Shown piece after piece: positions 1 through 24,866 of a stretch of 24,866 nucleotides of DNA. How positions within the stretch are numbered: the first letter of the stretch is position 1; every line of letters begins with the position of its first letter. This stretch comes from a virus, in the IMG/VR virus record IMGVR_UViG_3300032087_001058, positions 1 to 24,866 of that record, one strand, 5' to 3'. Under the pieces are notes generated by a model. It did not search any database and was not told the origin of the DNA. It saw only the letters and a list, made by a program, of their open reading frames with translations. Both the position numbers and the translations under genes were made by a program.

Positions 1-1174
1 GGTAGGGTATACGTGCCGGTGTGAATGGATTCAACACACAACGAAGGATTATTGTACCACACACCCAGATGTTGACCTGCATTTGGTCAAACTCTGACAT
101 GTCTTCTGCGCCTTCAAAGCCTACTTCTTTTGCAAACTTTGCGTCAAGAACGCCCCAATACTCAAGAACTTCGTATCTGTTTTCAGAAATGTGTGGTTCT
201 GTTTCGTCTTCACGAATGGTGTCTTCGTAGTATTTATCTTCGTAGTTTGGTCCTTTTGCAAGGCACTCTTCGATTGCTTGGGCGTCAAAGTGTGGGCGCA
301 TGACAAGGCTGCGTAGCTGCTGCCGGTTCATACGGTGCCGTTCAATGACGTACTCGCAGTCTTCTACGGACGTAGCGGAGGGATCAGGATGAAAGTCCCA
401 ACACGAAACGTGTTCAATGCGAGGCACAGTGCGTTCGTACGGAGTGTACTCCCGCTCACCCTCTTCGTTGGTTGTCCACTTGTGTACCCGCTTGTAAAAG
501 TTAAACGGGCCTTTGATCACTCCCGTACCAAACAGTGCTGACTCAAAGATAGCTTTGCGAAACTCACTGACGGCGTTGGTGTCAAGCAACTGATCGTGGA
601 TACACTTTTCCATCTTTCGTGCTTGTTCTTTTGCAGGTTCAAACTGTGGTTCACCCATACGGGACTTGCCCGCAAGGATCATGTCACCAAAGTCTTTACC
701 GTACGATCCCAGTTTGTGCGGATCATCCGCCCTCATGGCACCGGGTGCTAAGTCACGTCCATCCCCCGGAAACCCATAGGGGTCACTTGGTTGTTGGTCT
801 AGTTCGTCAGCGGGGGTACGCATGTGAGCAAACTCTTCAATGCCTTCTGGCATCGGAGTTGATTCCACGACAAGTGGGAACTTTTTGTTGGCAAACAAGA
901 TGTCGATAATTTGCCCGTACGCAGCAAGAACTTTTGTTTTGGTGATCTTGATGAACACCTTTGATCTCTCGCTGTCGCGGTACTGCGTTGTGCTGTCGTA
1001 GATTCCACGAAAGTTTTTGTACGCTTGCAGCCACCGCTGTTCGTTTGAGAACCGTCCGTTCTCTGCGTCGTCAAACCGTGCCCGTATGTGACCCGCAAGT
1101 CCGGGCATCTGCTCGTCAGGGTTGGTTATCGGAATCGCTCGTTCTTCTTCCGGTTCTAGAAAATTATCGGACAT
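1..1174 (-). CDS. Phage portal protein, N-terminal 391 residues (C-terminus beyond left edge)
   Basis: Probable portal protein, the ring at the capsid vertex through which DNA is packaged and ejected. The frame is open from ATG at 1174 to the left edge, with no stop in the window. SD-like AGGAAG stands a few bases before the ATG. The acidic N-terminus (MSDNFLEPEEERAIP) is followed by RFDDAENGRFSNEQRWLQAY and IYDSTTQYRDSERSKVFIKI, then ILFANKKFPLVVES. This is the look of portals from marine podoviruses, where a long helical segment precedes the clip and stem. A later stretch, FRKAIFESALFGTGVIKGPF, fits the portal core. It is the last gene of the operon seen here, downstream of TerS, TerL and two other genes, which is the expected place. 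The fold was not tested; the call rests on sequence feel plus position. Confidence 0.8.
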   Translation of the reverse strand, partial: MSDNFLEPEEERAIPITNPDEQMPGLAGHIRARFDDAENGRFSNEQRWLQAYKNFRGIYDSTTQYRDSERSKVFIKITKTKVLAAYGQIIDILFANKKFPLVVESTPMPEGIEEFAHMRTPADELDQQPSDPYGFPGDGRDLAPGAMRADDPHKLGSYGKDFGDMILAGKSRMGEPQFEPAKEQARKMEKCIHDQLLDTNAVSEFRKAIFESALFGTGVIKGPFNFYKRVHKWTTNEEGEREYTPYERTVPRIEHVSCWDFHPDPSATSVEDCEYVIERHRMNRQQLRSLVMRPHFDAQAIEECLAKGPNYEDKYYEDTIREDETEPHISENRYEVLEYWGVLDAKFAKEVGFEGAEDMSEFDQMQVNIWVCGTIILRCVLNPFTPARIPY

Positions 1175-1183
1175 GTCGCTTCC

Positions 1184-1402
1184 TTAGTAGTCGCGTTCGT
1201 CTGCCATTTTAAAAAGTGAAGCTTCTACCGTAGCTTTTGTTTGCTTCTTTGGCATTGCTTCGATCATTGGGCCGGTTTGAACACGAGTGTCAAATTCCAA
1301 ACCTTCACGATACAGTTGTGATGCGCCTTCGTCTTTATCAACGCTGATTTTGTCTGCGTTCATAATGTACGATGCGCCGTAGTTGTAGTTATTACCGGGC
1401 AT
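1184..1402 (-). CDS. Hypothetical 72-aa protein between portal and 655-aa protein
   Basis: Unrecognised small protein of 72 residues. The ATG at 1402 has a strong SD (GGAGG, 7 bases upstream), and the gene fits tightly between its neighbours, with 9 bases to the portal start and 24 to the gene before it. That makes it very likely translated. It begins MPGNNYNYGASYIMNADKIS and ends with a charged stretch rich in Lys, Glu and Asp (SLFKMADERDY). No membrane segment, cysteine motif or known domain is visible. Its place inside the packaging operon suggests a virion or assembly role, such as a small head protein, but nothing in the sequence proves this. Confidence 0.65.
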   Translation of the reverse strand: MPGNNYNYGASYIMNADKISVDKDEGASQLYREGLEFDTRVQTGPMIEAMPKKQTKATVEASLFKMADERDY

Positions 1403-1426
1403 GTATGCCTCCGTTTGTTGGGTTGT

Positions 1427-3394
1427 TTAGCGGACTACGCCGCCGTAAAGAAACGATGGTGCTTGATCCATCGCGGTTGCTTCCCCCCGCATCGCATTGG
1501 CGCGGGCTTCGGGAACTGGTACGAACCCTTGTGCAGCCATATCAGGCGCAGAGGGTGCGGGATCGGGGATGTTAGGTTGGGGAGCAGCTTCCATCGGGTA
1601 CGACGCAAACTCTGGTTTGATATACCCCATTGCGTCCATCTGTGGTGCTACATCTGTTCGGGGGCCAAGACCTGATCCAGCGGGCATAGTGGCTCGTTGC
1701 TCTTCACGAAAGGGTGCGTCACTGTATGCCATGCCGGGAGGGGCAACGACCTCTGAAGCCCCTGCAGCCAGCCCTTGCATTGCAGCGGAAAACGGGGATG
1801 CTCCTTGTGCTTCTGCTTCTCTAGTAGCCGCTATGGTGCTTGCTCCTATCGCTACAGGCAAAAGACCTTTTATTACTTTTCCACCTACGTCAGTAGCACG
1901 AGATATTATGCCTTTATCAGCCTTTTCAACACCGTATTCTTCCGCCATATCATCTAGGTAGGTATCAAAATTAGCATCAGCTTCTGCTACTTTAGCGGCT
2001 TGTTTTATGTCTTTTTGTTCTTGTCTTAGGGCAGCAAGCTGGTCTTGTCTTTCAATTCCTTCCCTAGCTTTATCAACATCTAGTGCTGCTGCTTTTTCTA
2101 TGTTTTGTTGTTGAAGGTCTAGTGCTTTAGCAGTTTGTTTTTCAGCGGATAAAAACGCAGACGCATCCATTTCAGCTTTTTGTGCCTCAGTTAAAGGCAC
2201 AGCAGGTTGAAGAGCTTGTCCTGCTCCGCGATAATCTTCAACTAATGCTGGAAATGAAGCCGTGCCTTCCGCATTAAATACCGTAGTAGGAATACCAAAC
2301 TTAGCTGCAATTACACTATTAGTCGTAGGGGTATTTAAATTTTTTGCAGTTTGTCTAACGAGATTTTCTGCAATCTCTCCAATCTTAGCTGGATTTGCTT
2401 GCGCTGATTTGTACGCATCTTTTACTTTGTGTCCTGCAAAGTCTTCAGCTAGTGCAAAATTTATTTCAAATTCTTTTTCTAATTGATCTTGAACTGCCGA
2501 CCTAATATCTGTAGGTCGCCATCCGGATTCTCCACTCTTTGGATCGACGGGTATTTGTGTAGGAAATCGTTCTTCTACTATTGGCTTTATGTGTTTGTTA
2601 TGTGCAGCATCTGTTTTACTTTTTGTGGTGTCAAACAGTTTTATGTCTTTTAATTTTTTTCCGGGGTTTGCGGCTTTGGATATATCAAACTGTTCTTTTA
2701 GGAACGCAGCCATAGTTCCTTTGTAAGTAACATCTAGCCTAGTTTTATTTACTCGTTTTTCACCTTTTAAGGTTACGGTTAATTCTTTTGTATTAGGGTC
2801 TTTACTTATAACTATATCTGCTAATGTTGCAGGAGGTTTTGCAGGAGTAGTTTTTGTAGCTTTAGCTCCTAAAACAGTGTCAACACGAACTATGGTGTTT
2901 TTGTGAAAAAATAAAAATCGTTTTGTGTCATCACTAATATTTTTATCAGCATTCATATTTGTAAACGCATCGGCGTAGGCTTCGTCAAGATCCCCCGAAG
3001 GAATAAGGGCTTCCATTGAACGAGTTCGTCTAAGTTGTCCCTCAGAATACCCTCCTCCTTTTAAAATATCTGTTAAGTCTGTTTCAAGACCTAACGTAGA
3101 CAAGTACGGAATTTTTGCTCTTATAAATGCTTTTTTTAACGCACCCTCAAACCCTTGTACTCCAACGTAATAATTTGCTCGTGGAGTATCTACGTTACTT
3201 AAAAAACTTTCACTATTAAGTGCTTCTTTTAAAGGAGTGTCTAGAGTGGTGTCTCCTAATTTTCCAGCCGCAATAGCCTTTTTCAAATCTTGTATTCTAG
3301 AACCAGCTTTAGGCATAGTCATAGCGTGATCTAACGCCTGACCCATAGTCAACTCACCGGATTCTGCTAGTTGTTTAAACTGTTCGGTTTCCAT
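1427..3394 (-). CDS. Putative virion-associated protein, 655 aa, with a degenerate tyrosine-recombinase-like region
   Basis: Large protein between TerL and portal; no confident family. ATG at 3394 abuts the TerL stop. Residues about 150-330 recall a tyrosine recombinase catalytic domain. RFLFFHKNTIVRVDTVLG (R170) sits where box I would be, followed by a Lys-rich beta hairpin (TVTLKGEKRVNKTRLDV). Then come PTDIRSA (R298, with Thr where His is usual) and AGHKVKDAY (H322, Y328). Residues about 400-475 are Gln/Ala/Lys/Glu-rich and probably coiled coil. Residues 504-525 (KVIKGLLPVAIGASTIAAT) are hydrophobic. The last 130 residues are Ala/Pro/Met-rich and end in FLYGGVVR. Base composition changes sharply inside the gene: positions 1501-1560 have 39 of 60 G+C and 2641-2700 have 19 of 60. 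It could be a structural or ejected protein that reuses an integrase fold, or an unrelated scaffold or internal protein. Confidence 0.75.
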   Translation of the reverse strand: METEQFKQLAESGELTMGQALDHAMTMPKAGSRIQDLKKAIAAGKLGDTTLDTPLKEALNSESFLSNVDTPRANYYVGVQGFEGALKKAFIRAKIPYLSTLGLETDLTDILKGGGYSEGQLRRTRSMEALIPSGDLDEAYADAFTNMNADKNISDDTKRFLFFHKNTIVRVDTVLGAKATKTTPAKPPATLADIVISKDPNTKELTVTLKGEKRVNKTRLDVTYKGTMAAFLKEQFDISKAANPGKKLKDIKLFDTTKSKTDAAHNKHIKPIVEERFPTQIPVDPKSGESGWRPTDIRSAVQDQLEKEFEINFALAEDFAGHKVKDAYKSAQANPAKIGEIAENLVRQTAKNLNTPTTNSVIAAKFGIPTTVFNAEGTASFPALVEDYRGAGQALQPAVPLTEAQKAEMDASAFLSAEKQTAKALDLQQQNIEKAAALDVDKAREGIERQDQLAALRQEQKDIKQAAKVAEADANFDTYLDDMAEEYGVEKADKGIISRATDVGGKVIKGLLPVAIGASTIAATREAEAQGASPFSAAMQGLAAGASEVVAPPGMAYSDAPFREEQRATMPAGSGLGPRTDVAPQMDAMGYIKPEFASYPMEAAPQPNIPDPAPSAPDMAAQGFVPVPEARANAMRGEATAMDQAPSFLYGGVVR

Positions 3395-5065
3395 TTAGTA
3401 CCCAAATACTTCGTCTTGAACTTGGTGGACTTGATTCTTTATCGCACCCAGTTGTTTGTGTATGGAAGCATACCCGCTCATGCGTGTCATCATTCCGTAG
3501 CGCAACGCATCGTATGCGTGATCCTCTGCCTTTGTGTCTACGTCTTCGCTGTTTGTTTTGGAGAGCGGGATGCCAGCAATCTGTTTGACTATGTTGCTGC
3601 ACGTAGAAAAGAAGCGGATGCGAGGTTCCTCTGTGTATGGATCATCGGCTAGGCGACGGTGTATTTCCATTTTGCCTTGAATGCGATTGCGGTCTGCTGG
3701 AGTCCAACGAACACCCTGCCGCATCATTACCTCTGCGATTGATGGCCCAAAACCTGTCTTGTTCCAGCAAGACGAGTCAAGGACCGTGTAGTGAGGTATG
3801 GGGTCTAGTTGTTCCGCTGATAGTATTTTAGCGGCTAACTCTTCCGCTGTCAAGTGTTTTTCGTATAATTCTCTATAAATCCAAATGTTGTTATCCCAGT
3901 CGATTGCTCCCCACAGAACACACGAGGGTGCAGCGTAGCCGTAGTCGGCCATTCGTATGCGCGGCCAGTTGGTTGGCAGTTCGAACGGCTCTACGACGTG
4001 CTTGGTGCGGCTAAACTCTGGGAAGGCCGCTCCCTCTGCCACGTCCCAATCCCCTTCAAGAAGTCGCTTTCGTTCGACATCCGGGAGCGATCTGAGCATG
4101 GCCTCGTACTGGCCGTCTGCCATCAGATGGGGATTGTCAGTCAGCCGTGCCGGTACAAACTTACGAAAGAACAGCGGCTGACCTGCTTTTTCGTGGCCGG
4201 GGGGCCACACAAAGTCTTTTTTTGTCTCTATATCGAACGCAGGAAAAGGCTTGTTTTCTGGGGTTCCGTCGATGTAGGTTTTCTTGACCCACCAACCACC
4301 CACTCCTCCGGGGTTGGCAGTGCAGCGCATGTACAGGTGTTGCTGGAGTTCAGGATCAGTAGTACGAAGGCGAGAACGCAGGTAATCCCAGACGTAGGGT
4401 GTAGGATATTGGGTAATCTCATCAATGCCTATCCAGTTGAACGCCTGTCCCTGAAAACGAGTTACGTCTTTGTCTTTGTCTAGGTAGGTAAACCAGATTG
4501 TTGCTCCGGAGGGAAAGTGCCACGTTGACTTGGACTCACGAAACTTTGCACCGGGAAAAGCTTTTGTGTATAGCTGGCGTGACTTGTCGATCAGTTCGGT
4601 TAGTTCGTCCAGAGTGCGACGAAGCAGTAGACCGCGATGGTTGCTATTGTGACAAAAGCGTAACGGGTCTGCAAGAAGCGCGAAACTTTTTCCGCCACCG
4701 GCTGCACCACCGTATAATACGTCGCGTTCACCAGCAGACAAAAACTCTTCTTGCGGCCCAGCGTTGGGCTGGAATACAATCTCACTGTCCTTGACCAACT
4801 CTGAAACGGCACTAGGCAGTTCAGACAAGTCTCCTTGATCAACGACTTTAGTTTCCGTACCAACAAGTGCTTTTTCTACCTTTGTTATCTTTGCTTCAAG
4901 ATTGCGGGCGTATCTGCGTTTGTCTTCGGCTGCTTTTGTTGTTTTGGCTGCGCGGCGTTTGGCTCCGTTCAGTTTCTTTTGAGCAGCACGACGGGCACGT
5001 TCCTTTACGGACAGGTTGTACGAGGCTTTGGGTGCGTTGGGGTCTTTCTTAGGGCGTCCTGCCAC
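3395..5065 (-). CDS. terL: Terminase large subunit (packaging ATPase and nuclease)
   Basis: DNA-packaging motor that cuts concatemers and pumps DNA through the portal. 556 residues from GTG at 5065. The start overlaps the previous stop by one base (TAGTG), and the following gene begins directly after its TAA. Walker A is GGAAGGGKS (119-127) and Walker B is WIGIDE (211-216, catalytic Glu 216). A CTANPGG coupling motif sits at 248-254. The C-terminal RNase H-like nuclease shows candidate metal ligands at D374 (RMADYGY), D430 (YTVLDSS) and D515/D519 (KAEDHAYDA). Residues 1-60 are a very basic Lys/Arg/Ala-rich extension, possibly contacting DNA or TerS. The length suits terminases of podovirus type. 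The pairing with TerS and portal supports the call. Confidence 0.95.
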   Translation of the reverse strand: MAGRPKKDPNAPKASYNLSVKERARRAAQKKLNGAKRRAAKTTKAAEDKRRYARNLEAKITKVEKALVGTETKVVDQGDLSELPSAVSELVKDSEIVFQPNAGPQEEFLSAGERDVLYGGAAGGGKSFALLADPLRFCHNSNHRGLLLRRTLDELTELIDKSRQLYTKAFPGAKFRESKSTWHFPSGATIWFTYLDKDKDVTRFQGQAFNWIGIDEITQYPTPYVWDYLRSRLRTTDPELQQHLYMRCTANPGGVGGWWVKKTYIDGTPENKPFPAFDIETKKDFVWPPGHEKAGQPLFFRKFVPARLTDNPHLMADGQYEAMLRSLPDVERKRLLEGDWDVAEGAAFPEFSRTKHVVEPFELPTNWPRIRMADYGYAAPSCVLWGAIDWDNNIWIYRELYEKHLTAEELAAKILSAEQLDPIPHYTVLDSSCWNKTGFGPSIAEVMMRQGVRWTPADRNRIQGKMEIHRRLADDPYTEEPRIRFFSTCSNIVKQIAGIPLSKTNSEDVDTKAEDHAYDALRYGMMTRMSGYASIHKQLGAIKNQVHQVQDEVFGY

Positions 5066-5523
5066 TAGGACTTCTCCGCGCTGCTTTGTGCGGAGCGGCC
5101 CTTACAAGCAGAACCTCCATGAGCCAGCTTCTCACGGGGTGCCGTGCGTGGCTTTGGCTTGGGCACGGACATTCCTAACTCAGTAGAGTATCCCTTGCTT
5201 GCGCCGGGGAAGTCTAGGTTTGTTTTGTACTCGTTTGCTTTATCGCGCCTTGTTTGACGTATTCCTGCAGCCCTGTCTTTTCCGGATGTGATAGTTCTTA
5301 GCCTGACAGGCTTGAATGTTTCGGAGTCAAACTCACGCAAACGCACACGTCCGCCCATAGTTTCAGAGCTGCTCTTCGGAACAGCAGCAATGTTTTCATT
5401 TGCAACGATCTCATTATAGATTTTACGTTGACCGGGTGTGAGGTCTGCAACCTCTGCCTTCGTAATCTTGCGGAAATTCTCGTTAAATTTCTTTCTGGTT
5501 TTATCGTACTGATCAAGTGCCAT
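5065..5523 (-). CDS. Hypothetical 152-aa basic protein between TerS and TerL
   Basis: Unrecognised protein of 152 residues, basic, with no hydrophobic segment. ATG at 5523 overlaps the 3' end of terS by 11 bases, and its stop overlaps the terL GTG, so translation is likely coupled across all three. The N-terminus is charged and helical (DQYDKTRKKFNENFRKITKA). The middle is Arg-rich (RLREFDSETFKPVRLRTI). The C-terminus is low complexity and ends LAHGGSACKGRSAQSSAEKS. The Gly-Gly near the C-terminus recalls the GG motifs in two other proteins of this window (655 aa and 95 aa). Its place suggests a packaging accessory or minor head protein; the function is unknown. Confidence 0.8.
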   Translation of the reverse strand: MALDQYDKTRKKFNENFRKITKAEVADLTPGQRKIYNEIVANENIAAVPKSSSETMGGRVRLREFDSETFKPVRLRTITSGKDRAAGIRQTRRDKANEYKTNLDFPGASKGYSTELGMSVPKPKPRTAPREKLAHGGSACKGRSAQSSAEKS

Positions 5524-8763: not shown

Positions 8764-8893
8764 CCCCTGAGCCAAAATTAATTGAAAAAGTTGACCGGCT
8801 GGCCCCGCGACTCGCCGCCGATCCGATCGCCCCGTCACCCCGCCCCCGAAAGAAACAAAAAAAGCGGAAACATCCAGACAATCCCCAATTAAG

Positions 8894-8941
8894 TTTGAAG
8901 CAATGAGCTGACAATATTTTGAAGCAATGCGCTGACATTAT
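8894..8941 (-). repeat. Two tandem 24-bp repeats containing GCTGACA
   Basis: Plus strand: units TTTGAAGCAATGNGCTGACA plus four A/T bases at 8894-8917 and 8918-8940, followed by a partial third (TTTGA, 8941-8945). Read on the minus strand, the second unit supplies the TAA stop of the 204-aa gene and an immediately overlapping ATG (TAATG). The GCTGACA core is the same as in the array at 9742-9934. Confidence 0.8.
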
Positions 8942-9552
8942 TTGATCCCGTACCGATCCCGCCACACTCGCCAAGTGATAGCCTGTAGTTGATACGGCAT
9001 GATGTTGATCTGTTGCGCGGCATCCTTGTACGCATCTTGCAGCCCGCGATACTCCCGAACACCTATATTGGTCCGATCATCGGTTAAGCCAATCCGCTCA
9101 TCATAGGCAATGTTTCGTGCGTGACCATCGATTGTCACGTTGAACTCGCCCATTATATCACAAAAGAAAGACGTGATCTTTTGTCCCTTGAGCATCCTTT
9201 TTGCACCGTCATAGTCCGGTTTAACCGCAAGAATGCCCCAAGCTTTCTTTTTCATAGCGTGGTAAGTTGACACTTTCACCGAATCAATACCATCGCCGCG
9301 AATAAACGCACCGATTAACGCATCAGCATTTTTGACATTACGCGCCCATTTATTATTTGGGGACAACGCAGAAACAACCGCAACAACGATATACACCGGC
9401 ACGTCATATTTTATGCCGATATCATACGCTGCATCGTAGGCGTTAGCATACCATGCCATGCCACCGGCTATCTGTTCCGGTGTGGCATCCAGATAGCAGT
9501 GGGTAATGTTGCTGATCATTTTGGGTTGAGATAGTTTGGTCGGGCGTTTCAT
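8938..9552 (-). CDS. Uncharacterised phage protein, 204 aa (helical, DNA-glycosylase-like feel)
   Basis: I recognise this as a widespread phage protein type without a known job. Conserved-looking blocks are VAVVSALSPNNKWARNVKNA (57-76), then KGQKITSFFCDIMGEFNVTI followed directly by DGHARNIAYDE, and PYQLQAITWRVWRDRYG at the end. A Leu-Ser-Pro turn, a Lys-Ile-Thr-x-Phe helix and a catalytic-style Asp (VTIDGHA) recall helix-hairpin-helix DNA glycosylases, but that likeness is my inference. ATG 9552 has SD AAAGGA. All residues look polar or helical; no signal peptide. The stop lies inside a 24-bp tandem repeat. A DNA-modifying or DNA-binding role is possible. Confidence 0.75.
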   Translation of the reverse strand: MKRPTKLSQPKMISNITHCYLDATPEQIAGGMAWYANAYDAAYDIGIKYDVPVYIVVAVVSALSPNNKWARNVKNADALIGAFIRGDGIDSVKVSTYHAMKKKAWGILAVKPDYDGAKRMLKGQKITSFFCDIMGEFNVTIDGHARNIAYDERIGLTDDRTNIGVREYRGLQDAYKDAAQQINIMPYQLQAITWRVWRDRYGIK

Positions 9553-9585: not shown

Positions 9586-9780
9586 CTAGGGATAATATCC
9601 GGTGTGGTCAAGCTGAATTATTCGCCCACCCGTTTTTTTAAGATAACACACGGAACACAGCACGGTCTGCTCAACGTGGATCGTGGCCGGTTCGCCGCAC
9701 CGCTCACAAGTTATGCCAGCGTCATCCTTTTGGGGATAGACGCTGACAATATTTTGGCTGACAATATTTGACGCTGACAT
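9586..9780 (-). CDS. Small zinc-ribbon protein, 64 aa
   Basis: Small protein with two CxxC knuckles (CERCG at 25-29 and CSVC at 42-45), which together should bind one zinc. It ends in a short basic/aromatic tail (QLDHTGYYP). ATG 9780 is itself part of a GCTGACA repeat, read on the minus strand as AATAATGTCAGC. The first 15 residues (MSASNIVSQNIVSVY) are simply the translation of three repeat copies, so the N-terminus may have been created by repeat spread. The SD is weak (CAGGT). Likely a nucleic-acid or protein-binding adaptor. Confidence 0.6.
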   Translation of the reverse strand: MSASNIVSQNIVSVYPQKDDAGITCERCGEPATIHVEQTVLCSVCYLKKTGGRIIQLDHTGYYP

Positions 9781-9934
9781 TATTTTACCTGACTAAAATC
9801 GGGGCAACCACAGGGTGCCATCCTTTACGGCTGACAAAAGGGCTGACAATTCTTTGCGTTCACGCTGACAATCTTTGCCGTGCCATTCTTTGTCACTGAC
9901 AATTTTGCGTAAACGGCTGACATTATTGCTGACA
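9742..9934 (-). repeat. Array of eight GCTGACA repeats, all in one orientation
   Basis: Exact GCTGACA on the plus strand begins at 9742, 9757, 9773, 9830, 9842, 9864, 9916 and 9928, with a variant ACTGACA at 9895. Most are followed by AT-rich sequence (ATATTT, TTATT or ATTCTTT). Two more are at 8907 and 8931. The array spans the start of the zinc-ribbon gene and most of the 64-aa gene, and it falls in all three codon frames of the latter. Spacing is irregular (12-52 bases). This looks like a DNA- or RNA-level motif: iteron, operator cluster or small mobile repeat. Confidence 0.85.
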
Positions 9935-9987
9935 TTATACAGGCGCGGGTCTACATCGTTGGTTGGGTATTCAATCGGTCGGTACAT
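9793..9987 (-). CDS. Hypothetical 64-aa protein rich in repeat-encoded residues
   Basis: Small charged, helical protein (MYRPIEYPTNDVDPRLYNVS at the start, ending VKDGTLWLPRF). ATG 9987 overlaps the HTH gene by 17 bases. The central 40 residues are built around GCTGACA repeats read as NVS, IVS, CQ and LSA according to frame. That argues the DNA motif, not the peptide, is under selection. The first 16 residues and the last 15 are repeat-free and could be the older protein. No domain is recognised. Confidence 0.5.
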   Translation of the reverse strand: MYRPIEYPTNDVDPRLYNVSNNVSRLRKIVSDKEWHGKDCQRERKELSALLSAVKDGTLWLPRF

Positions 9988-10219
9988 TTGTCATCCTTTT
10001 GGGTTCTAGCGTAAACCCTAACACATTGTAACACGCCTCAAGGTCGGTGATTCGCGGTACTGTTCGCGTCCGCCAATCTTTGAGGGTGTTTTTGTTTATG
10101 CCAGTACGCTCTGCCATGTCAAGCACTCCAATCCGCTGGTAACGCATCTCCTCAAAAAGAGTACGCACCCACGGATTGCAACGCTCCGGAATAGATACGG
10201 GTGTGTATCTCTCCCTCAT
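9971..10219 (-). CDS. XRE/Cro-type HTH regulator, 82 aa
   Basis: Small helix-turn-helix protein. Residues about 28-55 (QRIGVLDMAERTGINKNTLK, DWRTRT) form a classic XRE HTH: a first helix, a turn at TGIN and a recognition helix NTLKDWR. These are followed by VPRITDLEACYNVLGFTLE, like the later helices of Cro-type repressors. I start at ATG 10219, which overlaps the previous stop by one base (TGATG), rather than at the TTG one codon earlier. It lies directly upstream of the repeat-bearing genes on the same strand, so those repeats are possible binding sites; that link is a guess. Confidence 0.8.
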   Translation of the reverse strand: MRERYTPVSIPERCNPWVRTLFEEMRYQRIGVLDMAERTGINKNTLKDWRTRTVPRITDLEACYNVLGFTLEPKRMTNVPTD

Positions 10220-10389
10220 CAACTAATACCAAAGTTGAATTCAAACTGTTGGTCACCCAAGTCGAGTTCGGCCCGTGTCTTGTTGTATATCTCTATGCAA
10301 GACTCGCCGTGCTTTTCTGTCCACTCTTCACGGGTCATGTCCAATGCGTCTTCTTGCATTTCAATGTGCCAGTCGCTCATCTTACCCAT
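10219..10389 (-). CDS. Hypothetical 56-aa acidic protein
   Basis: Short acidic protein starting MGKMSDWHIEMQEDALDMTR and ending DLGDQQFEFNFGIS. I place the start at ATG 10389, with AGGA 8 bases upstream, rather than at further in-frame starts inside the previous gene. A second ATG three codons on is also possible. It overlaps the previous gene by 8 bases and the HTH gene by one. The sequence is helical and charged (EEWTEKHGESCIEIYNKTRA) with no known domain. It belongs to the run of tiny early-type genes at 9586-11973. Confidence 0.6.
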   Translation of the reverse strand: MGKMSDWHIEMQEDALDMTREEWTEKHGESCIEIYNKTRAELDLGDQQFEFNFGIS

Positions 10390-10558
10390 CGTTACTATCC
10401 TTAATTCTATCCCACTGTGAGTTAAGGTCTTGACGAAATGCAGGGTCAACATCGTAGAGCCACTCCAACAACCCAGCCACATATTCGGCTATACTTTCAT
10501 CGCCTTGATAGGCACTCAAATCGTCCTTCGCCACCTTTATAAAATCAATTTCATTCAT
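10382..10558 (-). CDS. Hypothetical 58-aa acidic protein
   Basis: Small acidic helical protein (MNEIDFIKVAKDDLSAYQGD at the start; WLYDVDPAFRQDLNSQWDRI later). ATG 10558 is chosen because GGAGGT lies 9 bases upstream and the preceding gene stops two bases before it. An alternative start at 10585 would sit inside that gene. No cysteines or membrane segment. Function unknown; size and acidity are typical of phage early proteins that act on host factors, which is only context. Confidence 0.65.
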   Translation of the reverse strand: MNEIDFIKVAKDDLSAYQGDESIAEYVAGLLEWLYDVDPAFRQDLNSQWDRIKDSNDG

Positions 10559-10560
10559 CG

Positions 10561-10734
10561 TCACTGTACCTCCACTGTTGTACACTCACACTCGTAGTTG
10601 TCGTTTATCATCAGACCATCGTCTAGTTCTTTGCAACACGCCTCCTCTACAGCACCATCTGCGTCTTCTGCGGTGACAAAAAACTCGTAGTCCTGTTTGA
10701 CTGTCAATACTACGCGATAGGTTCGGTCAATCAT
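10561..10734 (-). CDS. Hypothetical 57-aa acidic protein
   Basis: ATG 10734 overlaps the stop of the 95-aa gene by one base (TGATG), and its own TGA is two bases before the next ATG. So although it is only 57 residues, it fits the chain of coupled genes well. The sequence begins MIDRTYRVVLTVKQDYEFFV: alternating hydrophobic residues suggest a beta hairpin. An acidic helix follows (AEDADGAVEEACCKELDDG), then NDNYECECTTVEVQ. The layout of strand, strand, helix and final strand is that of small phage proteins with a dsRBD- or MTH538-like mini-fold, but I cannot assign a family. Confidence 0.65.
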   Translation of the reverse strand: MIDRTYRVVLTVKQDYEFFVTAEDADGAVEEACCKELDDGLMINDNYECECTTVEVQ

Positions 10735-14268: not shown

Positions 14269-14846
14269 ACGTGCTGACGTTTGATGTGGAGACAACCCAC
14301 ACACACAAGCCGTCCGGTGGCACCACTGCCCTGCCGTACTTTGGTAATCGTTTGGTTTCAATAGGTTACAAGTGGTTGGACGAGGAACAGGTGTTCTATG
14401 ACTGTTACTACCACGAAACTGAACCGCCCACGCACAGTGCGGCAGAGGACTTCCAAACATCTCTTGACTACGCTGATGTAGTTGTGGGACAAAACATTAA
14501 GTTTGATCTGTCGTGGATACGTGACTGTGGGTTCACATACACAGGAGAAATCTATGATACTATGGTTGCAGAGTATGTTTTATCGAAAGCGCGGCGATGG
14601 CCTCTTGGACTTGCTGCTCTTGCAAAAAAGTATGACACGGTGCAAAAAGAGAAAGACCTCGTTGAGCCGTTTATGGCGGCGGGAAAAACCTTTTTCGAAA
14701 TACCGTGGGAAATAGTAAAAGAGTACGGCATAGCTGACGTTGCAGCTACAGAGCAGATTGCTCTCAAACAACTTGAAGCCTTTGGCACTACATTTGAGGA
14801 ACTATACAATGAACGATCTACTACCGACATTGCGTCTGTCGCTTGA
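14265..14846 (+). CDS. 3'-5' exonuclease, DnaQ/Pol I proofreading type (stand-alone)
   Basis: Proofreading nuclease, here a separate gene from the polymerase. I begin at GTG 14265 (MNVLTFDVETT), which has GGAGG 7 bases upstream and a GTGA overlap; GTG 14271 is the alternative. Exo I is FDVET (D7, E9), Exo II is GQNIKFD (N77, D81) and Exo III is YGIADVAA (Y154, D158). D98 (IYDTMVAEY) fits the usual DTM. 193 residues. Its 3' end overlaps the polymerase start by 38 bases, so the two products are likely made together and act together like a broken Pol I. Confidence 0.9.
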   Translation: MNVLTFDVETTHTHKPSGGTTALPYFGNRLVSIGYKWLDEEQVFYDCYYHETEPPTHSAAEDFQTSLDYADVVVGQNIKFDLSWIRDCGFTYTGEIYDTMVAEYVLSKARRWPLGLAALAKKYDTVQKEKDLVEPFMAAGKTFFEIPWEIVKEYGIADVAATEQIALKQLEAFGTTFEELYNERSTTDIASVA

Positions 14847-16344
14847 GATGACTGACACACTAGCCCGCATCGAACGCAACGGGCTGCGTGTCAACCTAGA
14901 CACACTGGATGAAATCGAAAAGCTGTACCAAGATGAGTTTGATGCGCTGGAGTTGCGTCTCAACGACATGGCCCGTGCAGCTATGGGGGACACACCCATC
15001 AGCCTGACCAGCCCCGATGACAGGTCAATGCTGCTATACTCACGCAAAGTCAAAGACAAAAAGTCGTGGGCATCTATGTTCAACTTGGGCATGGAGCAGC
15101 GCGGTGCCACAATGAAACCAAAGCAACGCACTCGTATGTCCGCCAAAGACTTTCGTATTTCTGTACGAAACAACACAGACGTGGTGTTCAAAACACGGGG
15201 TGAGCAGTGTCTTGCGTGTGTCGGTACAGGCCGTGTGCGTCCCGTACGTAAAGACGGAACTCCCAGCAAAGCGTTGCGTGTCTGCAAGCAGTGCAGCGGC
15301 AAGGGTGTTATATACCGGTCTACCGGAGAGGTGGCTGGGTTCAAGATTGTACCCCGCAACGTGCGTGACGTAGCATCTGCTGGGTTTAAAACAGACAAGG
15401 ATACACTGGCTGAACGGGAACTAGAACTGTCGGGTCCAGCCCGTGAGTTTGCATCTGCGTACGTGCGGTACAACGCACTGCGTATGTATCTTGGTACGTT
15501 TGTAGAGGGAATGAAAAACAATGTCGATGACCACGGTTTCATACATCCGGAATTTATGCAGTGTGTTACGGCGACGGGTCGCCTTTCGTCTCGCAATCCT
15601 AACTTTCAAAATATGCCACGAGGTAACACGTTTGAAATACGGAAGGTTGTGGAGAGTCGTTTTCCGCAGGGTAAGATTGTGGAGGGGGACTACTCGCAGT
15701 TAGAATTTAGAGTCGCAGGATTTCTAGCACAAGACAGTCAAGCCTATGCTGACGTAGAGGCTGGCACAGACGTACACAGTTACACTGCCAGTGTGATTGG
15801 CTGTTCACGGCAAGAAGCAAAGGCACACACCTTCAAGCCTCTCTACGGCGGCACTACGGGCACAGAGGCCCAACAACGCTACTACAGGGCGTTCAAAGAG
15901 AAGTATGGTGGGGTAGCACTCTGGCATGAAGACCTCCAGCGAGAGGCCGTTACACACCGCGTAGTGACGTTACCGTCTGGAAGACAGTACGCTTTCCCTG
16001 ATGCGCGGTGGACAAAGTACGGTACGGCTACACACCGCACAAACATCTGCAACTATCCCGTGCAAGGCTTTGCAACGGCTGATCTGTTGCCCGCTGCATT
16101 GGTACGCTTGGACAAATTATTTCAAGAAAACGAACTGCAATCTGTAATTTGTAATACGGTACACGATTCGATTGTACTGGACTGTCACCCTGATGAATTT
16201 AACATTTGTATCAGGCTGATGCGTGAAGCAATGTTGTCGTTACCCCAAGAAACTTTAAGACGTTATAACATTTGTTATGACATGCCTGTCGAAATTGAGA
16301 TAAAAAGCGGCGATAATTGGCTTGACTTAACTGTTGTAGAATAG
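14809..16344 (+). CDS. polA: Family A DNA polymerase with DnaJ-type zinc finger
   Basis: Replicative polymerase, 511 residues from ATG 14809 (GAGG 9 bases upstream). Motif A is GDYSQLEFR (293-301, catalytic D294). Motif B is RQEAKAHTFKPLYGG (334-348) with Phe at the E. coli 762 position (F342). Motif C is TVHDSIVLD (450-458), with HDS where HDE is usual. Residues 134-166 insert CLACVGTG and CKQCSGKG, the CxxCxGxG zinc repeat of DnaJ. Such a hybrid was reported in the SAR116 phage HMO-2011. The thumb region is short and no exonuclease domain is present (it is the preceding gene). Lys-Pro after F342 replaces the usual Gly-Leu of the O-helix. Confidence 0.95.
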   Translation: MNDLLPTLRLSLEMTDTLARIERNGLRVNLDTLDEIEKLYQDEFDALELRLNDMARAAMGDTPISLTSPDDRSMLLYSRKVKDKKSWASMFNLGMEQRGATMKPKQRTRMSAKDFRISVRNNTDVVFKTRGEQCLACVGTGRVRPVRKDGTPSKALRVCKQCSGKGVIYRSTGEVAGFKIVPRNVRDVASAGFKTDKDTLAERELELSGPAREFASAYVRYNALRMYLGTFVEGMKNNVDDHGFIHPEFMQCVTATGRLSSRNPNFQNMPRGNTFEIRKVVESRFPQGKIVEGDYSQLEFRVAGFLAQDSQAYADVEAGTDVHSYTASVIGCSRQEAKAHTFKPLYGGTTGTEAQQRYYRAFKEKYGGVALWHEDLQREAVTHRVVTLPSGRQYAFPDARWTKYGTATHRTNICNYPVQGFATADLLPAALVRLDKLFQENELQSVICNTVHDSIVLDCHPDEFNICIRLMREAMLSLPQETLRRYNICYDMPVEIEIKSGDNWLDLTVVE

Positions 16345-17262: not shown

Positions 17263-18139
17263 CATTCAAGACTATATGTCTAAGGCTTTGCGGGGGGAGA
17301 CTAGCGTTTCCCCCGCAGGTCTTTCTGAATTTGTAAACGACACAAAGTATTCTGTGGAGCGGCAGCTTACCGACAAGCGTGGTGAGTACCGTATCCGTAT
17401 GTCTGGTTTGGGACGGCCCCTGTGTCAGCAGGTGTTAGACAAGCACGGCATAAAAGAGTCGATGCAGTACAACACACTGTTTCGTTTTTTGTTTGGGGAT
17501 ATAACGGAAGCCATACTCATGCTGGTGATGAAAGAAGCCGGTGTGGACATCGTGGACTCTCAGCGAGGGGTTGAACTAAAGCTGGGTGGACATACTATCA
17601 AGGGAACGCTTGACGTAATCATACGGGATGAAACCGGCACAGAGAAAGTGTGGGACATCAAGTCTGCAAGCGACTGGGCATTCAAAAACAAATTCACTGG
17701 GTTCGGTGGCTACGATGGATTAAAAGAAGACGATCCGTTTGGCTACGTTATGCAGGGTTACTTGTACTCTGCCGCCACTGGTATGCCGTTTGGTGGGTGG
17801 ATTGTAGTCAACAAGTCTAGTGGTGAGGTAGCCGTGGTTGAGGCTCCTGACTGGCAAGATGAGGACCGTGCCAAATATTTGGCTGACGCAGAAGAGCGTG
17901 TCAAGTTTTTGACAGACCCAAAGGTGGAACCATTCCGGCCATACTCCGATGAGTTTGAAACATACAGACGCAAGGGTGAGACTTTGCGTACTGGAAACAA
18001 GGTGTTAGCAAAAGAGTGCAACCTGTGTGGATACCGGCAGCACTGCTGGCCAAACGCACAACTACACGCCCGTGTAACATCTCAAGCCAAGTCGCCACCA
18101 CAAGTCTGGTACACACGCCTCAAAACAAAGGAACTGTGA
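17246..18139 (+). CDS. PD-(D/E)XK exonuclease, Cas4/RecB-like with Fe-S-type cysteines
   Basis: Nuclease for recombination or host DNA breakdown. The active site reads FGDITEAI (E88), GTLDV (G120, D123) and WDIKSAS (D137, K139), with the Q-motif-like YVMQGYLYSAAT (167-178). A Cys at 60 (GRPLCQQ) plus C258, C261 and C267 (CNLCGYRQHC) match the one-plus-three cysteines that bind an Fe4S4 cluster in Cas4 and AddB-like nucleases. I start at ATG 17246 (MLTLLNIQDYM); ATG 17276 or 17210 are possible and no start has a clear SD. It overlaps the SSB-like gene by 17 bases. 297 residues. Confidence 0.85.
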   Translation: MLTLLNIQDYMSKALRGETSVSPAGLSEFVNDTKYSVERQLTDKRGEYRIRMSGLGRPLCQQVLDKHGIKESMQYNTLFRFLFGDITEAILMLVMKEAGVDIVDSQRGVELKLGGHTIKGTLDVIIRDETGTEKVWDIKSASDWAFKNKFTGFGGYDGLKEDDPFGYVMQGYLYSAATGMPFGGWIVVNKSSGEVAVVEAPDWQDEDRAKYLADAEERVKFLTDPKVEPFRPYSDEFETYRRKGETLRTGNKVLAKECNLCGYRQHCWPNAQLHARVTSQAKSPPQVWYTRLKTKEL

Positions 18140-21948: not shown

Positions 21949-22075
21949 ACAAAATAAACTACTTGTGTGGAAGCGGGGAGTAGATTATATTATCTACAAT
22001 CCTCCACGCAAGTCGGAACAGTGGGATGAGTGGCAGAAAGTGAAAGAAAAGGATGAACAAAAGATTCGCTCCTAA
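21938..22075 (+). CDS. Hypothetical 45-aa basic protein
   Basis: ATG 21938 overlaps the reductase end by 11 bases, and the stop overlaps the GIY-YIG gene by 23. The protein (MQPKQNKLLVWKRGVDYIIY, then NPPRKSEQWDEWQKVKEKDE, QKIRS) is basic with Trp and Tyr-rich strands then a helix. The overlaps and lack of stops suggest a true coupled gene, though the SD is poor. No family known. Confidence 0.5.
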   Translation: MQPKQNKLLVWKRGVDYIIYNPPRKSEQWDEWQKVKEKDEQKIRS

Positions 22076-22538
22076 TCCATACACAGGAAATCCTATGTAT
22101 TACAAGGATAACCCTGATTCTGTTCGTAAAAGAGATGCAAACAGGATGTACGTTAATGGTAAAGAAATATCAAAAAAACATCCCCTACACAAACCCGGAA
22201 ACTACAAATCCCTTAGTCATGCGTGGTCACATGAAAAGATAGATAAAACGCTTGAAGGAGATGTGTACGCTATAGTCAATCCTGCGTGGGAAGGCTGGGT
22301 TAAAATTGGTAAGGCTAGTTTTGCAGACGACAGATTAAATACGTATCAAACATCCTCCCCTCATAGGGACTACACTATACTTGCCCAAATACACACAGAC
22401 AACAAACATGAAAAAGAACTTGTAATGCACAGAATTTTTGAAGATAATGCAGAAGCCCGTAAGGGTGAGTGGTTTAAAATTCCAGAAGCAGACGCAGTGC
22501 TTTTATTTTTACAGGAGAGCGAAGAAGATGACAGATAA
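22053..22538 (+). CDS. GIY-YIG-type nuclease domain protein (T5orf172-like)
   Basis: The C-terminal two thirds match the T5orf172/MUG113 branch of the GIY-YIG nuclease fold. GDVYAIVNPAWEGWVKIGKA (69-88) gives the VYAI and VKIG strands. Then come DDRLNTYQTSSPHRDYTILA, with Arg of the first helix, KELVMHRIFEDN with the conserved His, and KGEWFKI with the Glu. The N-terminal part (KRFAPNPYTGNPMYYKDNPD) is basic and aromatic and may bind DNA. 161 residues. It could be a homing-type or host-DNA endonuclease; such genes are often mobile, but no insertion scar is visible. Confidence 0.85.
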   Translation: MNKRFAPNPYTGNPMYYKDNPDSVRKRDANRMYVNGKEISKKHPLHKPGNYKSLSHAWSHEKIDKTLEGDVYAIVNPAWEGWVKIGKASFADDRLNTYQTSSPHRDYTILAQIHTDNKHEKELVMHRIFEDNAEARKGEWFKIPEADAVLLFLQESEEDDR

Positions 22539-23408: not shown

Positions 23409-23692
23409 CTTTTGCCTTTGCCGTCTGCGGCGTAAAACGGAACCATATCACCGGCTTTGTTCTTTACCATTTTCAGCTTGCCTCCGCCAGCCATCATTGG
23501 CATCATGGGATTCATATTCATGCGCTTGTTCTGACGTTCGTTTTGTGTCATTGTGCTAGTCATCATGCCCCCCGCTTGAGCCTTCTTGCGGGGTTTCTTT
23601 TTAGTTGCCATTCCGCCGTACATCATTGGCTTGCGCTTTGCAGCACCGCCGTACATCATGCCTTTGCGTTGGCCGTTAGTGTAAGTTTTCAT
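23405..23692 (-). CDS. Met/Gly-rich basic 95-aa protein with MMYGG repeats
   Basis: A low-complexity basic protein: KGMMYGGAAKRK and KPMMYGGMATKKK near the start, then AQAGGMMTSTM, MNMNPMMPMMAGGGKLKMV and NKAGDMVPFYAADGKGKS. The repeats of MMYGG flanked by Lys/Arg, with a very high Met content, suggest a disordered DNA- or protein-binding virion component. I know similar sequences as unassigned small proteins beside structural genes in marine phages. The ATG at 23692 shares one base with the previous stop (TAATG), and AAGGAG lies 9 bases upstream. Last gene of the right-hand minus operon. Confidence 0.75.
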   Translation of the reverse strand: MKTYTNGQRKGMMYGGAAKRKPMMYGGMATKKKPRKKAQAGGMMTSTMTQNERQNKRMNMNPMMPMMAGGGKLKMVKNKAGDMVPFYAADGKGKS

Positions 23693-24866
23693 TAGTTTGC
23701 TCCTTGAGGTTGTATCGGCATACCTGCTCCAAATAGTCTTTGTGCATCCGACTGTTGATTATCCTGTATCTCTAAAAGTTGTTGTCGTGATCTTACGGTT
23801 CTACCTACTCTTAAAGCGTCTGTAGGTGCGCCCATTGTAAATTCGTGTCCTGTGTCAGTACGGATTCTTACGGGTTCAGGTTGTTTTGTGGCGTTGTATC
23901 TTTCTAAACCAACAGTGAGCATTTGAAACAACTGTTTTTCTTTTTCAAATGGAAGAGGCTTGCCCGTCCTAACCATCTCCATAAAATACTCACCCACTTT
24001 AGGATTTTGTATAATTTGGGTTAGTATGGACATATTTCTGTTTCGCATTTGTTGTAACACAGCCTCAGTTCCCACATACCTAAAGCTAACTACACCTCTA
24101 TTGATTGCGTAAAAGCGACTGATGTAACTTTCGACTGAGAAACTACGAGGTATGCCAGTAAATCTGATGCGGTTATCTAATTTGGTTTGCTCTTCAGATA
24201 AAAATGCTAACACAGACATGTATGTTTTGTATGCGTCTGCTCCCACTGCTTCTTCCACAGCTTGTGCAACGTCACGATTGTCCAGCCCCAGTAGCTTACG
24301 TAATTCAGGAAGATTTAAATCGTAGTCTGGTGTTAGACGAGTTGCTCCCGTAATACCTTTTGCTCCTGTATTAGCAGTGAACGTGCCTGTAGGAGTAAAA
24401 GCAGCGTTCTCCATAGCGTCAGTTATTACAGCGCGAAGAACTTCCGTTACTTCTTCGTCGGACATCTTGGCAGTTTCTTTTAGATGTTTTTTAAGAACAG
24501 CAATTCTTTCAGGACCACCCTCTATGAGAACACTAGCTGCCTTTCTTGCATCTATGTTTTCTGGGCTAAATCTTTGCAAGAAATCTACGGAAGTTTGTAC
24601 ACCTCTTTTGACCAAAGATACCTGCCGGGTTACTTCTTTTGCATTTTCTTCCGCTACTTTCTTGTACTGTTTTTGTGCGTTGTTAAATGCAAGCTCACCT
24701 ACAGACTCTTCATAAATATCTGTAAACTCCCTAAATATACGTTTGGTGTCTAGCAGAGGCACTTCATTTCCAGCCTCATCTATTCCCGTAAATATTTGTT
24801 CATATCTAGTTGATAGCTGATCAAACTGTTTGAAGGTCATCTGACCATTTTCTATTTGTCCCAACA
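23692..24866 (-). CDS. C-terminal part (about 391 aa) of a large putative internal virion protein
   Basis: The frame is open to the right edge; the only start-like codon there is a TTG (24864), so the true start lies outside. Highly charged and helical: FDQLSTRYEQIFTGIDEAGN, FLQRFSPENIDARKAASVLI and RNMSILTQIIQNPKVGEYFM, then EMVRTGKPLPFEKEKQLFQM. The pattern of repeated helices with a Gln/Pro-rich tail (SDAQRLFGAGMPIQPQGAN) is what I know from the ends of giant internal or ejected proteins of marine podoviruses, but no enzyme motif is visible in this part. DNA here is more AT-rich than in the replication genes. It overlaps the 95-aa gene by one base. Confidence 0.7.
   Translation of the reverse strand, partial: LGQIENGQMTFKQFDQLSTRYEQIFTGIDEAGNEVPLLDTKRIFREFTDIYEESVGELAFNNAQKQYKKVAEENAKEVTRQVSLVKRGVQTSVDFLQRFSPENIDARKAASVLIEGGPERIAVLKKHLKETAKMSDEEVTEVLRAVITDAMENAAFTPTGTFTANTGAKGITGATRLTPDYDLNLPELRKLLGLDNRDVAQAVEEAVGADAYKTYMSVLAFLSEEQTKLDNRIRFTGIPRSFSVESYISRFYAINRGVVSFRYVGTEAVLQQMRNRNMSILTQIIQNPKVGEYFMEMVRTGKPLPFEKEKQLFQMLTVGLERYNATKQPEPVRIRTDTGHEFTMGAPTDALRVGRTVRSRQQLLEIQDNQQSDAQRLFGAGMPIQPQGAN

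Follow-up and report, generated by a model that had tools for sequence, protein, structure and literature searches.

A Directional DNA Word with Two Dialects Co-Varies with the Internal Virion Protein Genes of Uncultured HMO-2011-Type Phages

In the phages described here, two arrays of a short directional DNA word are written in one of two dialects. The comparison of gene trees with word class shows that the dialect co-varies with the genes for the internal virion (ejection-core) proteins, despite the recombination of everything between them, and that it switched repeatedly on the trees of the surrounding genes. The reading that we favor, tentatively and with a little less than even confidence, is that the words serve as directional sites on the DNA and that the factor matched to them is part of the internal virion set.

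The DNA that was analyzed, termed the window, is the whole stretch from position 1 to 24,866 (24.9 kb) of the IMG/VR virus record IMGVR_UViG_3300032087_001058, from a marine phage. Judged by its genes, the window represents part of an uncultured phage of the HMO-2011 type. Its terL is closest to those of HTVC115P and the CRP and HMO-2011 phages, with 47-57% identity to these isolates, and its DNA polymerase (ORF 14740-16344) contains the CXXCXGXG (partial DnaJ) repeats CLACVGTG and CKQCSGKG. A DNA polymerase with CXXCXGXG repeats is a described trait of HMO-2011-type phages (PMC9038755). No near DNA match to the window was found among named phages, and a search of the window for Rfam-type RNA families gave none above threshold and one sub-threshold hit. 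The features of the window that are needed for the argument are the following.

1..1173, minus strand: portal, N-terminal 391 residues; class-B type, 99% to contig G002
1427..3394, minus strand: tyrosine-recombinase-like gene, 655 aa; body common to both classes, C-terminal tail (about 1430-1564) of class A
8793..8828, minus strand: G+C-rich stem-loop (stem, CGAGTCGCGGGG loop, stem), non-coding, after the second array
8907..8937, minus strand: second array; a 24-nt unit present twice and ending in ATTGTCAGC/ATGTCAGC, plus ATTGCTTC
8938..9552, minus strand: DUF7178 gene, 204 aa, between the two arrays; glycosylase-like relatives in cyanophages
9586..9780, minus strand: gene Y, 64-aa zinc-ribbon protein; three words in its variable N-terminal stretch
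9742..9934, minus strand: main array; eight TGTCAGC (gene sense; GCTGACA on the plus strand) plus a variant at 9895
9793..9987, minus strand: gene X, 64-aa protein of no family; contains five words that differ in frame
9971..10222, minus strand: 83-aa HTH ORF, rejected as the matching factor
23692..24864, minus strand: ~1550-aa internal virion (ejection core) protein, C-terminal 390 aa; class-A type

The main array extends over the last two thirds (3') of gene X and into the 5' end of gene Y. On the plus strand, GCTGACA is found at 9742, 9757, 9773, 9830, 9842, 9864, 9916, and 9928, with ACTGACA at 9895, and the two further copies at 8907 and 8931 belong to the second array, which directly follows the DUF7178 stop codon. 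The span, the number of copies, and the positions of the variant and of the two further copies had been given in the initial annotation, made from the letters alone, and all were confirmed, as was its remark that one copy, found here to be that at 9773, supplies the start codon (ATG) of the zinc-ribbon ORF. The local genes are on the minus strand; the transcribed word is TGTCAGC, usually within AATATTGTCAGC, and every word has the same direction relative to transcription. Class-A words recur every 15-16 nt in gene Y and, downstream, every 23-24 nt. Between two relatives, L010 and L012, the copy number in gene Y (upstream of DUF7178) differs by increments of about 15 nt, as slippage or unequal exchange would produce.

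A chance origin of the array was ruled out by two procedures. The whole window contains 16 copies of GCTGACA; none of 100 dinucleotide-shuffled versions reached this number, their average being 3.5 ± 1.75. Synonymous re-coding of the two small genes gave a mean of 0.65 copies and a maximum of 6 in 20,000 trials, compared with the 8 observed. Five more plus-strand copies are scattered within long genes (12138, 12306, 13973, 19349, and 20392); the arrays themselves are restricted to one region and are not genome-wide. The all-frame reading of the word also held up, since in class-A relatives the word occurs in all three frames of both small genes (19/5/9 and 56/18/6). A peptide repeat is therefore rejected, and the repeat is directional and at the level of the nucleotides, as had been proposed.

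Relatives were collected from IMG/VR using the DUF7178 protein as the query. The 80 loci obtained were divided by their words into 22 of class A, 49 of class B, and 9 unclassed, the last mostly incomplete loci. The class-A word is AATATTGTCAGC, and the class-B word is TGACAAA-N6/7-ACRCYA, with a gap of 6 or 7 bases in all 82 of the pairs that were counted. Class-A relatives carry the same word at both places in the same orientation as the window. In class-B relatives the class-B word occupies the same two places, and the class-A word is absent there. No phage was found with both kinds of array; each classifiable phage uses one dialect at both places. The DUF7178 protein of locus L005 is 99% identical to that of the window, yet the class-A word is absent at its arrays. 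CRP-1 and CRP-13, named isolates that carry DUF7178, have no such arrays beside this gene, and when tandem class-A words were sought in IMG/VR beyond this lineage, four contigs (L253, L254, L255, and L258) came up, none of them with arrays. In L261 (10625-10703), L266, L271, and G012 (17342-17549), copies of TGACAAA or of its complement also form a smaller cluster of their own near the primase gene.

The genes at the locus persist through the change of dialect. The conserved residues of gene X (MYRPI-YPTNDVDPRL...LR...WH-K...GTLW-P-F) survive it, and the length of the protein stays at 64-65 aa when the word is exchanged, which disposes of the suggestion that the word is a spreading insertion. 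By the initial annotation, relatives that keep the peptide and vary the DNA word would refute its reading; such relatives were found, but in the class-B ones another word forms the array. In five relatives retrieved via the portal gene (L173, L178, L179, L191, and L203), an unrelated 228-aa gene replaces DUF7178, and arrays still flank it. Along the minus strand, the second array is followed by a non-coding stretch with the stem-loop and then by the DUF932 gene. The stem-loop (8793-8828) is conserved in both word classes, with a near-constant CGAGTCGCGGGG loop and arms that vary between relatives; the arms covary by eye, with only three pairs retained in the RNAalifold consensus, and no Rfam match was found for this element.

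Word class was compared with gene trees at first in 19 long contigs and later in up to 34. In the first 19 contigs the class labels came from the same data that had revealed the split, and the later contigs provide an independent test. The trees of scaffold, the 74-aa gene (which overlaps the end of the portal gene), p464, and p184 were each found to require one change of word class, and the portal tree two (P of 0.0005 or less in each case, from label shuffles in which shared ancestry is not fully accounted for). Numbers of changes near chance were determined for DUF7178 (10), DUF932 (13), the HTH gene HTH145 (9), DnaB (7), PolA (7), the 290-aa protein (7), RNR (6), MCP (4), the tail genes (4-5), and primase (6), for which the P value was the lowest of these (0.03). 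The terminase was also near chance, with 8 changes for terS (P = 0.12) and 6 for terL. These values dispose of another early suggestion, replication iterons for a genome-encoded protein, as neither primase, DnaB, PolA, nor the 290-aa protein follows the word. The neighboring HTH gene, for which the array had been suggested as an operator, is present in 3 of 23 class-A loci (the window included) and in 0 of 49 class-B loci and was discarded as well; the ORF itself exists, with a length of 83 aa rather than the 82 aa first given.

The ~1550-aa proteins adjoin p184 and fall into two families that barely match each other. The core HMMs A and B assigned 17 contigs, all in agreement with their words. 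Only 18 contigs contain both core and arrays, and the cores of G022 and G061 are near-identical. The window's own core fragment clusters with class A. One of the 17 is the very divergent contig G060, which played no part in the discovery of the pattern and which combines two class-A words with a class-A core. The later contigs agree as well: G026 and G009 (by p464), G062, L265, and the later-found portals. The finer variants of the class-B word showed no co-variation with the core proteins (Mantel r about 0), and none of the tested genes followed them. About eight proteins make up the matched block, and the candidate partner is therefore not narrowed to one protein. The co-variation spans genes that are 8 to 30 kb apart, and this makes it a strong handle for finding the partner, whatever the mechanism.

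Two pairs of genomes illustrate this in natural form. The window and G002, the class-B contig of locus L005, are mostly 90-97% identical in DNA across the window, with two lower stretches of 82-85% and a ribonucleotide reductase region of 80-81%. The larger stretches that do not align are 1402-3395, 5065-5517, 9708-10182, 10402-10734, 22020-22522, and 23692 onward. Three of these correspond to the integrase-like gene, the main array with its neighbors, and the ~1550-aa core protein; the second array is swapped within an aligned stretch. (In G002, which is 61.5 kb long, about 6 kb of tail genes seem to be repeated at both ends, probably an assembly artifact.) The window is the sole exception on the portal tree, with class-A arrays and a class-B-type N-terminal part of the portal. 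The first 391 portal residues are of class B in both genomes, and unless the window contig is chimeric near 1402, this speaks against the N-terminal half of the portal as the reader of the words. The second pair combines G061 of class A with G021 of class B; their tail genes are 96.8% identical in DNA over about 10 kb, and one fiber reaches 99.7%.

This second pair bears on the idea that the words form a host-dependent signal, with words and core proteins both adapting to groups of hosts. Ejection proteins must indeed fit the host envelope. A and B phages can, however, have near-identical tail fibers and, therefore, the same receptor and probably the same host, which makes a host effect unlikely. 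They can have near-identical backbones as well, and no agreement with class was seen for other genes whose products meet host factors; we regard this explanation as highly improbable. A better case can be made for the integrase-like gene between terL and portal. This gene is highly diverse, with R170, K210, and R298 nearly invariant; 4 of 20 members match Pfam Phage_integrase and the PHROG integrase, and the best fold matches of its model, which are weak, are topoisomerase IB and Ndc10. On these grounds the gene product is classed as a tyrosine recombinase. In the HMO-2011 record, terL directly adjoins the portal (head-tail adaptor) gene, without a recombinase gene. The last 45 residues follow word class in 25 of 27 nearest neighbors, and the words could then be arm-type or accessory sites of a virion-packaged integrase that is loaded via its class-specific tail, with only an indirect link to the core. 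The arm-type sites of lambda Int are similarly short, directional, and repeated; in lambda Int, however, arm and core binding are located in the N-terminal and catalytic parts, and here these parts follow class weakly (16/20 and 15/20; P 0.02-0.05). Within one class, very different recombinase bodies go with one word, the arrays are 5.5 kb away from the gene, and the tail looks disordered and not DNA-binding. We infer that the tail is a tag for loading the recombinase into the particle, and we consider integrase sites an improbable explanation of the words.

Two other rivals were weighed. On the same co-variation, the words may be a class-specific packaging signal that is read by the core or portal set and not by TerS, so that the genomes of co-infecting relatives are not cross-packaged. 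The arrays are located between terS and the early genes, and pac and cosB sites are likewise directional arrays, but the usual readers, terS and terL, change class on their trees as often as expected by chance. Of the packaging site offered in the initial annotation, the terminase type thus falls away; for a packaging- or ejection-related site, the matching factor would be sought among the internal virion proteins and not in a neighbor. As a separate explanation, a packaging signal appears unlikely, if somewhat less so than integrase sites. Transcription- or RNA-level sites (stoperator-like stops or RNA-protein sites), read by a regulator that is encoded in the core block, would fit the single direction of all words relative to transcription and their spacing, and cluster A stoperators also show an orientation bias and genome-specific dialects (PMC6550527). 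Against this, the nearby regulators HTH145 and the 83-aa HTH protein do not follow class, no recognizable regulator was found in the matched block, and the words sit in one region rather than along the whole genome. We would rate such sites as no more probable than those of an integrase. A virion RNA polymerase with the words as its promoters was also considered and rejected; profile comparisons of the large core proteins with PHROGs, Pfam, and PDB gave no match, and these proteins evolve too fast for a polymerase.

We return to the favored reading, a factor of the internal virion set. A core protein, or something docked in the core, would read the words while the head holds, takes up, or ejects the genome, and a genome with words mismatched to its core would be at a disadvantage. 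In the version that we consider most likely, the core would dock or clamp the genome close to one of its ends, analogous to the clamp proposed for gp16 of T7, with sequence specificity added. The next best reading would be licensing at packaging, for which the reader would be portal or core, because the terminase does not follow the words. The ends of contigs are enriched on the terS side of the arrays, although not sharply. In the open-access literature that was searched, no site dialect matched to internal virion proteins was found. More tentatively still, it is conceivable that podophage cores read directional, sequence-specific sites in the genome, a two-dialect protein-DNA code that is recombined as a set and keeps particles and genomes matched.

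If the favored reading is true, the internal virion proteins of short-tailed phages make a sequence-specific contact with the genome that is undescribed for T7 and its relatives in the literature searched, and a docking or clamping site with sequence specificity would be a novelty. Such a contact would account for the way in which a genome end is held or metered during DNA entry, a question of long standing for T7-like phages. It would also allow phages with a common host to keep particle and genome matched.

Parts of this arrangement are found in known systems. Replication iterons, such as the lambda O sites inside gene O, share the placement of repeats within a coding gene, whereas no replication gene here follows word class. 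The pac and cosB sites share directional repeats near the terminase genes, but the specificity here does not follow terS or terL. The lambda attP arms share short directional repeats and an encoded tyrosine recombinase; here only the tail of the recombinase follows the word and its body does not. The stoperators of cluster A mycobacteriophages are many short asymmetric sites, mostly in one orientation relative to transcription, with a genome-specific dialect matched to a trans factor (PMC6550527). The arrays described here resemble them in being short directional sites with a genome-specific dialect. They differ in being confined to a single region, where they lie within coding frames and behind one stop codon, and in that the matched set consists of virion core genes, with no repressor gene following the word. 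For the core of T7, gp15 and gp16-C were reported to bind DNA, the binding by gp16-C being sequence-independent, and a role for gp16-C was proposed as a clamp on the entering genome near 850 bp (PMC8954989). The gene order p464-p131-p184-p807-p1621 resembles gp14-gp15-gp16. A difference from T7 is that neither of the two large core proteins here matches PHROG, Pfam, or PDB entries.
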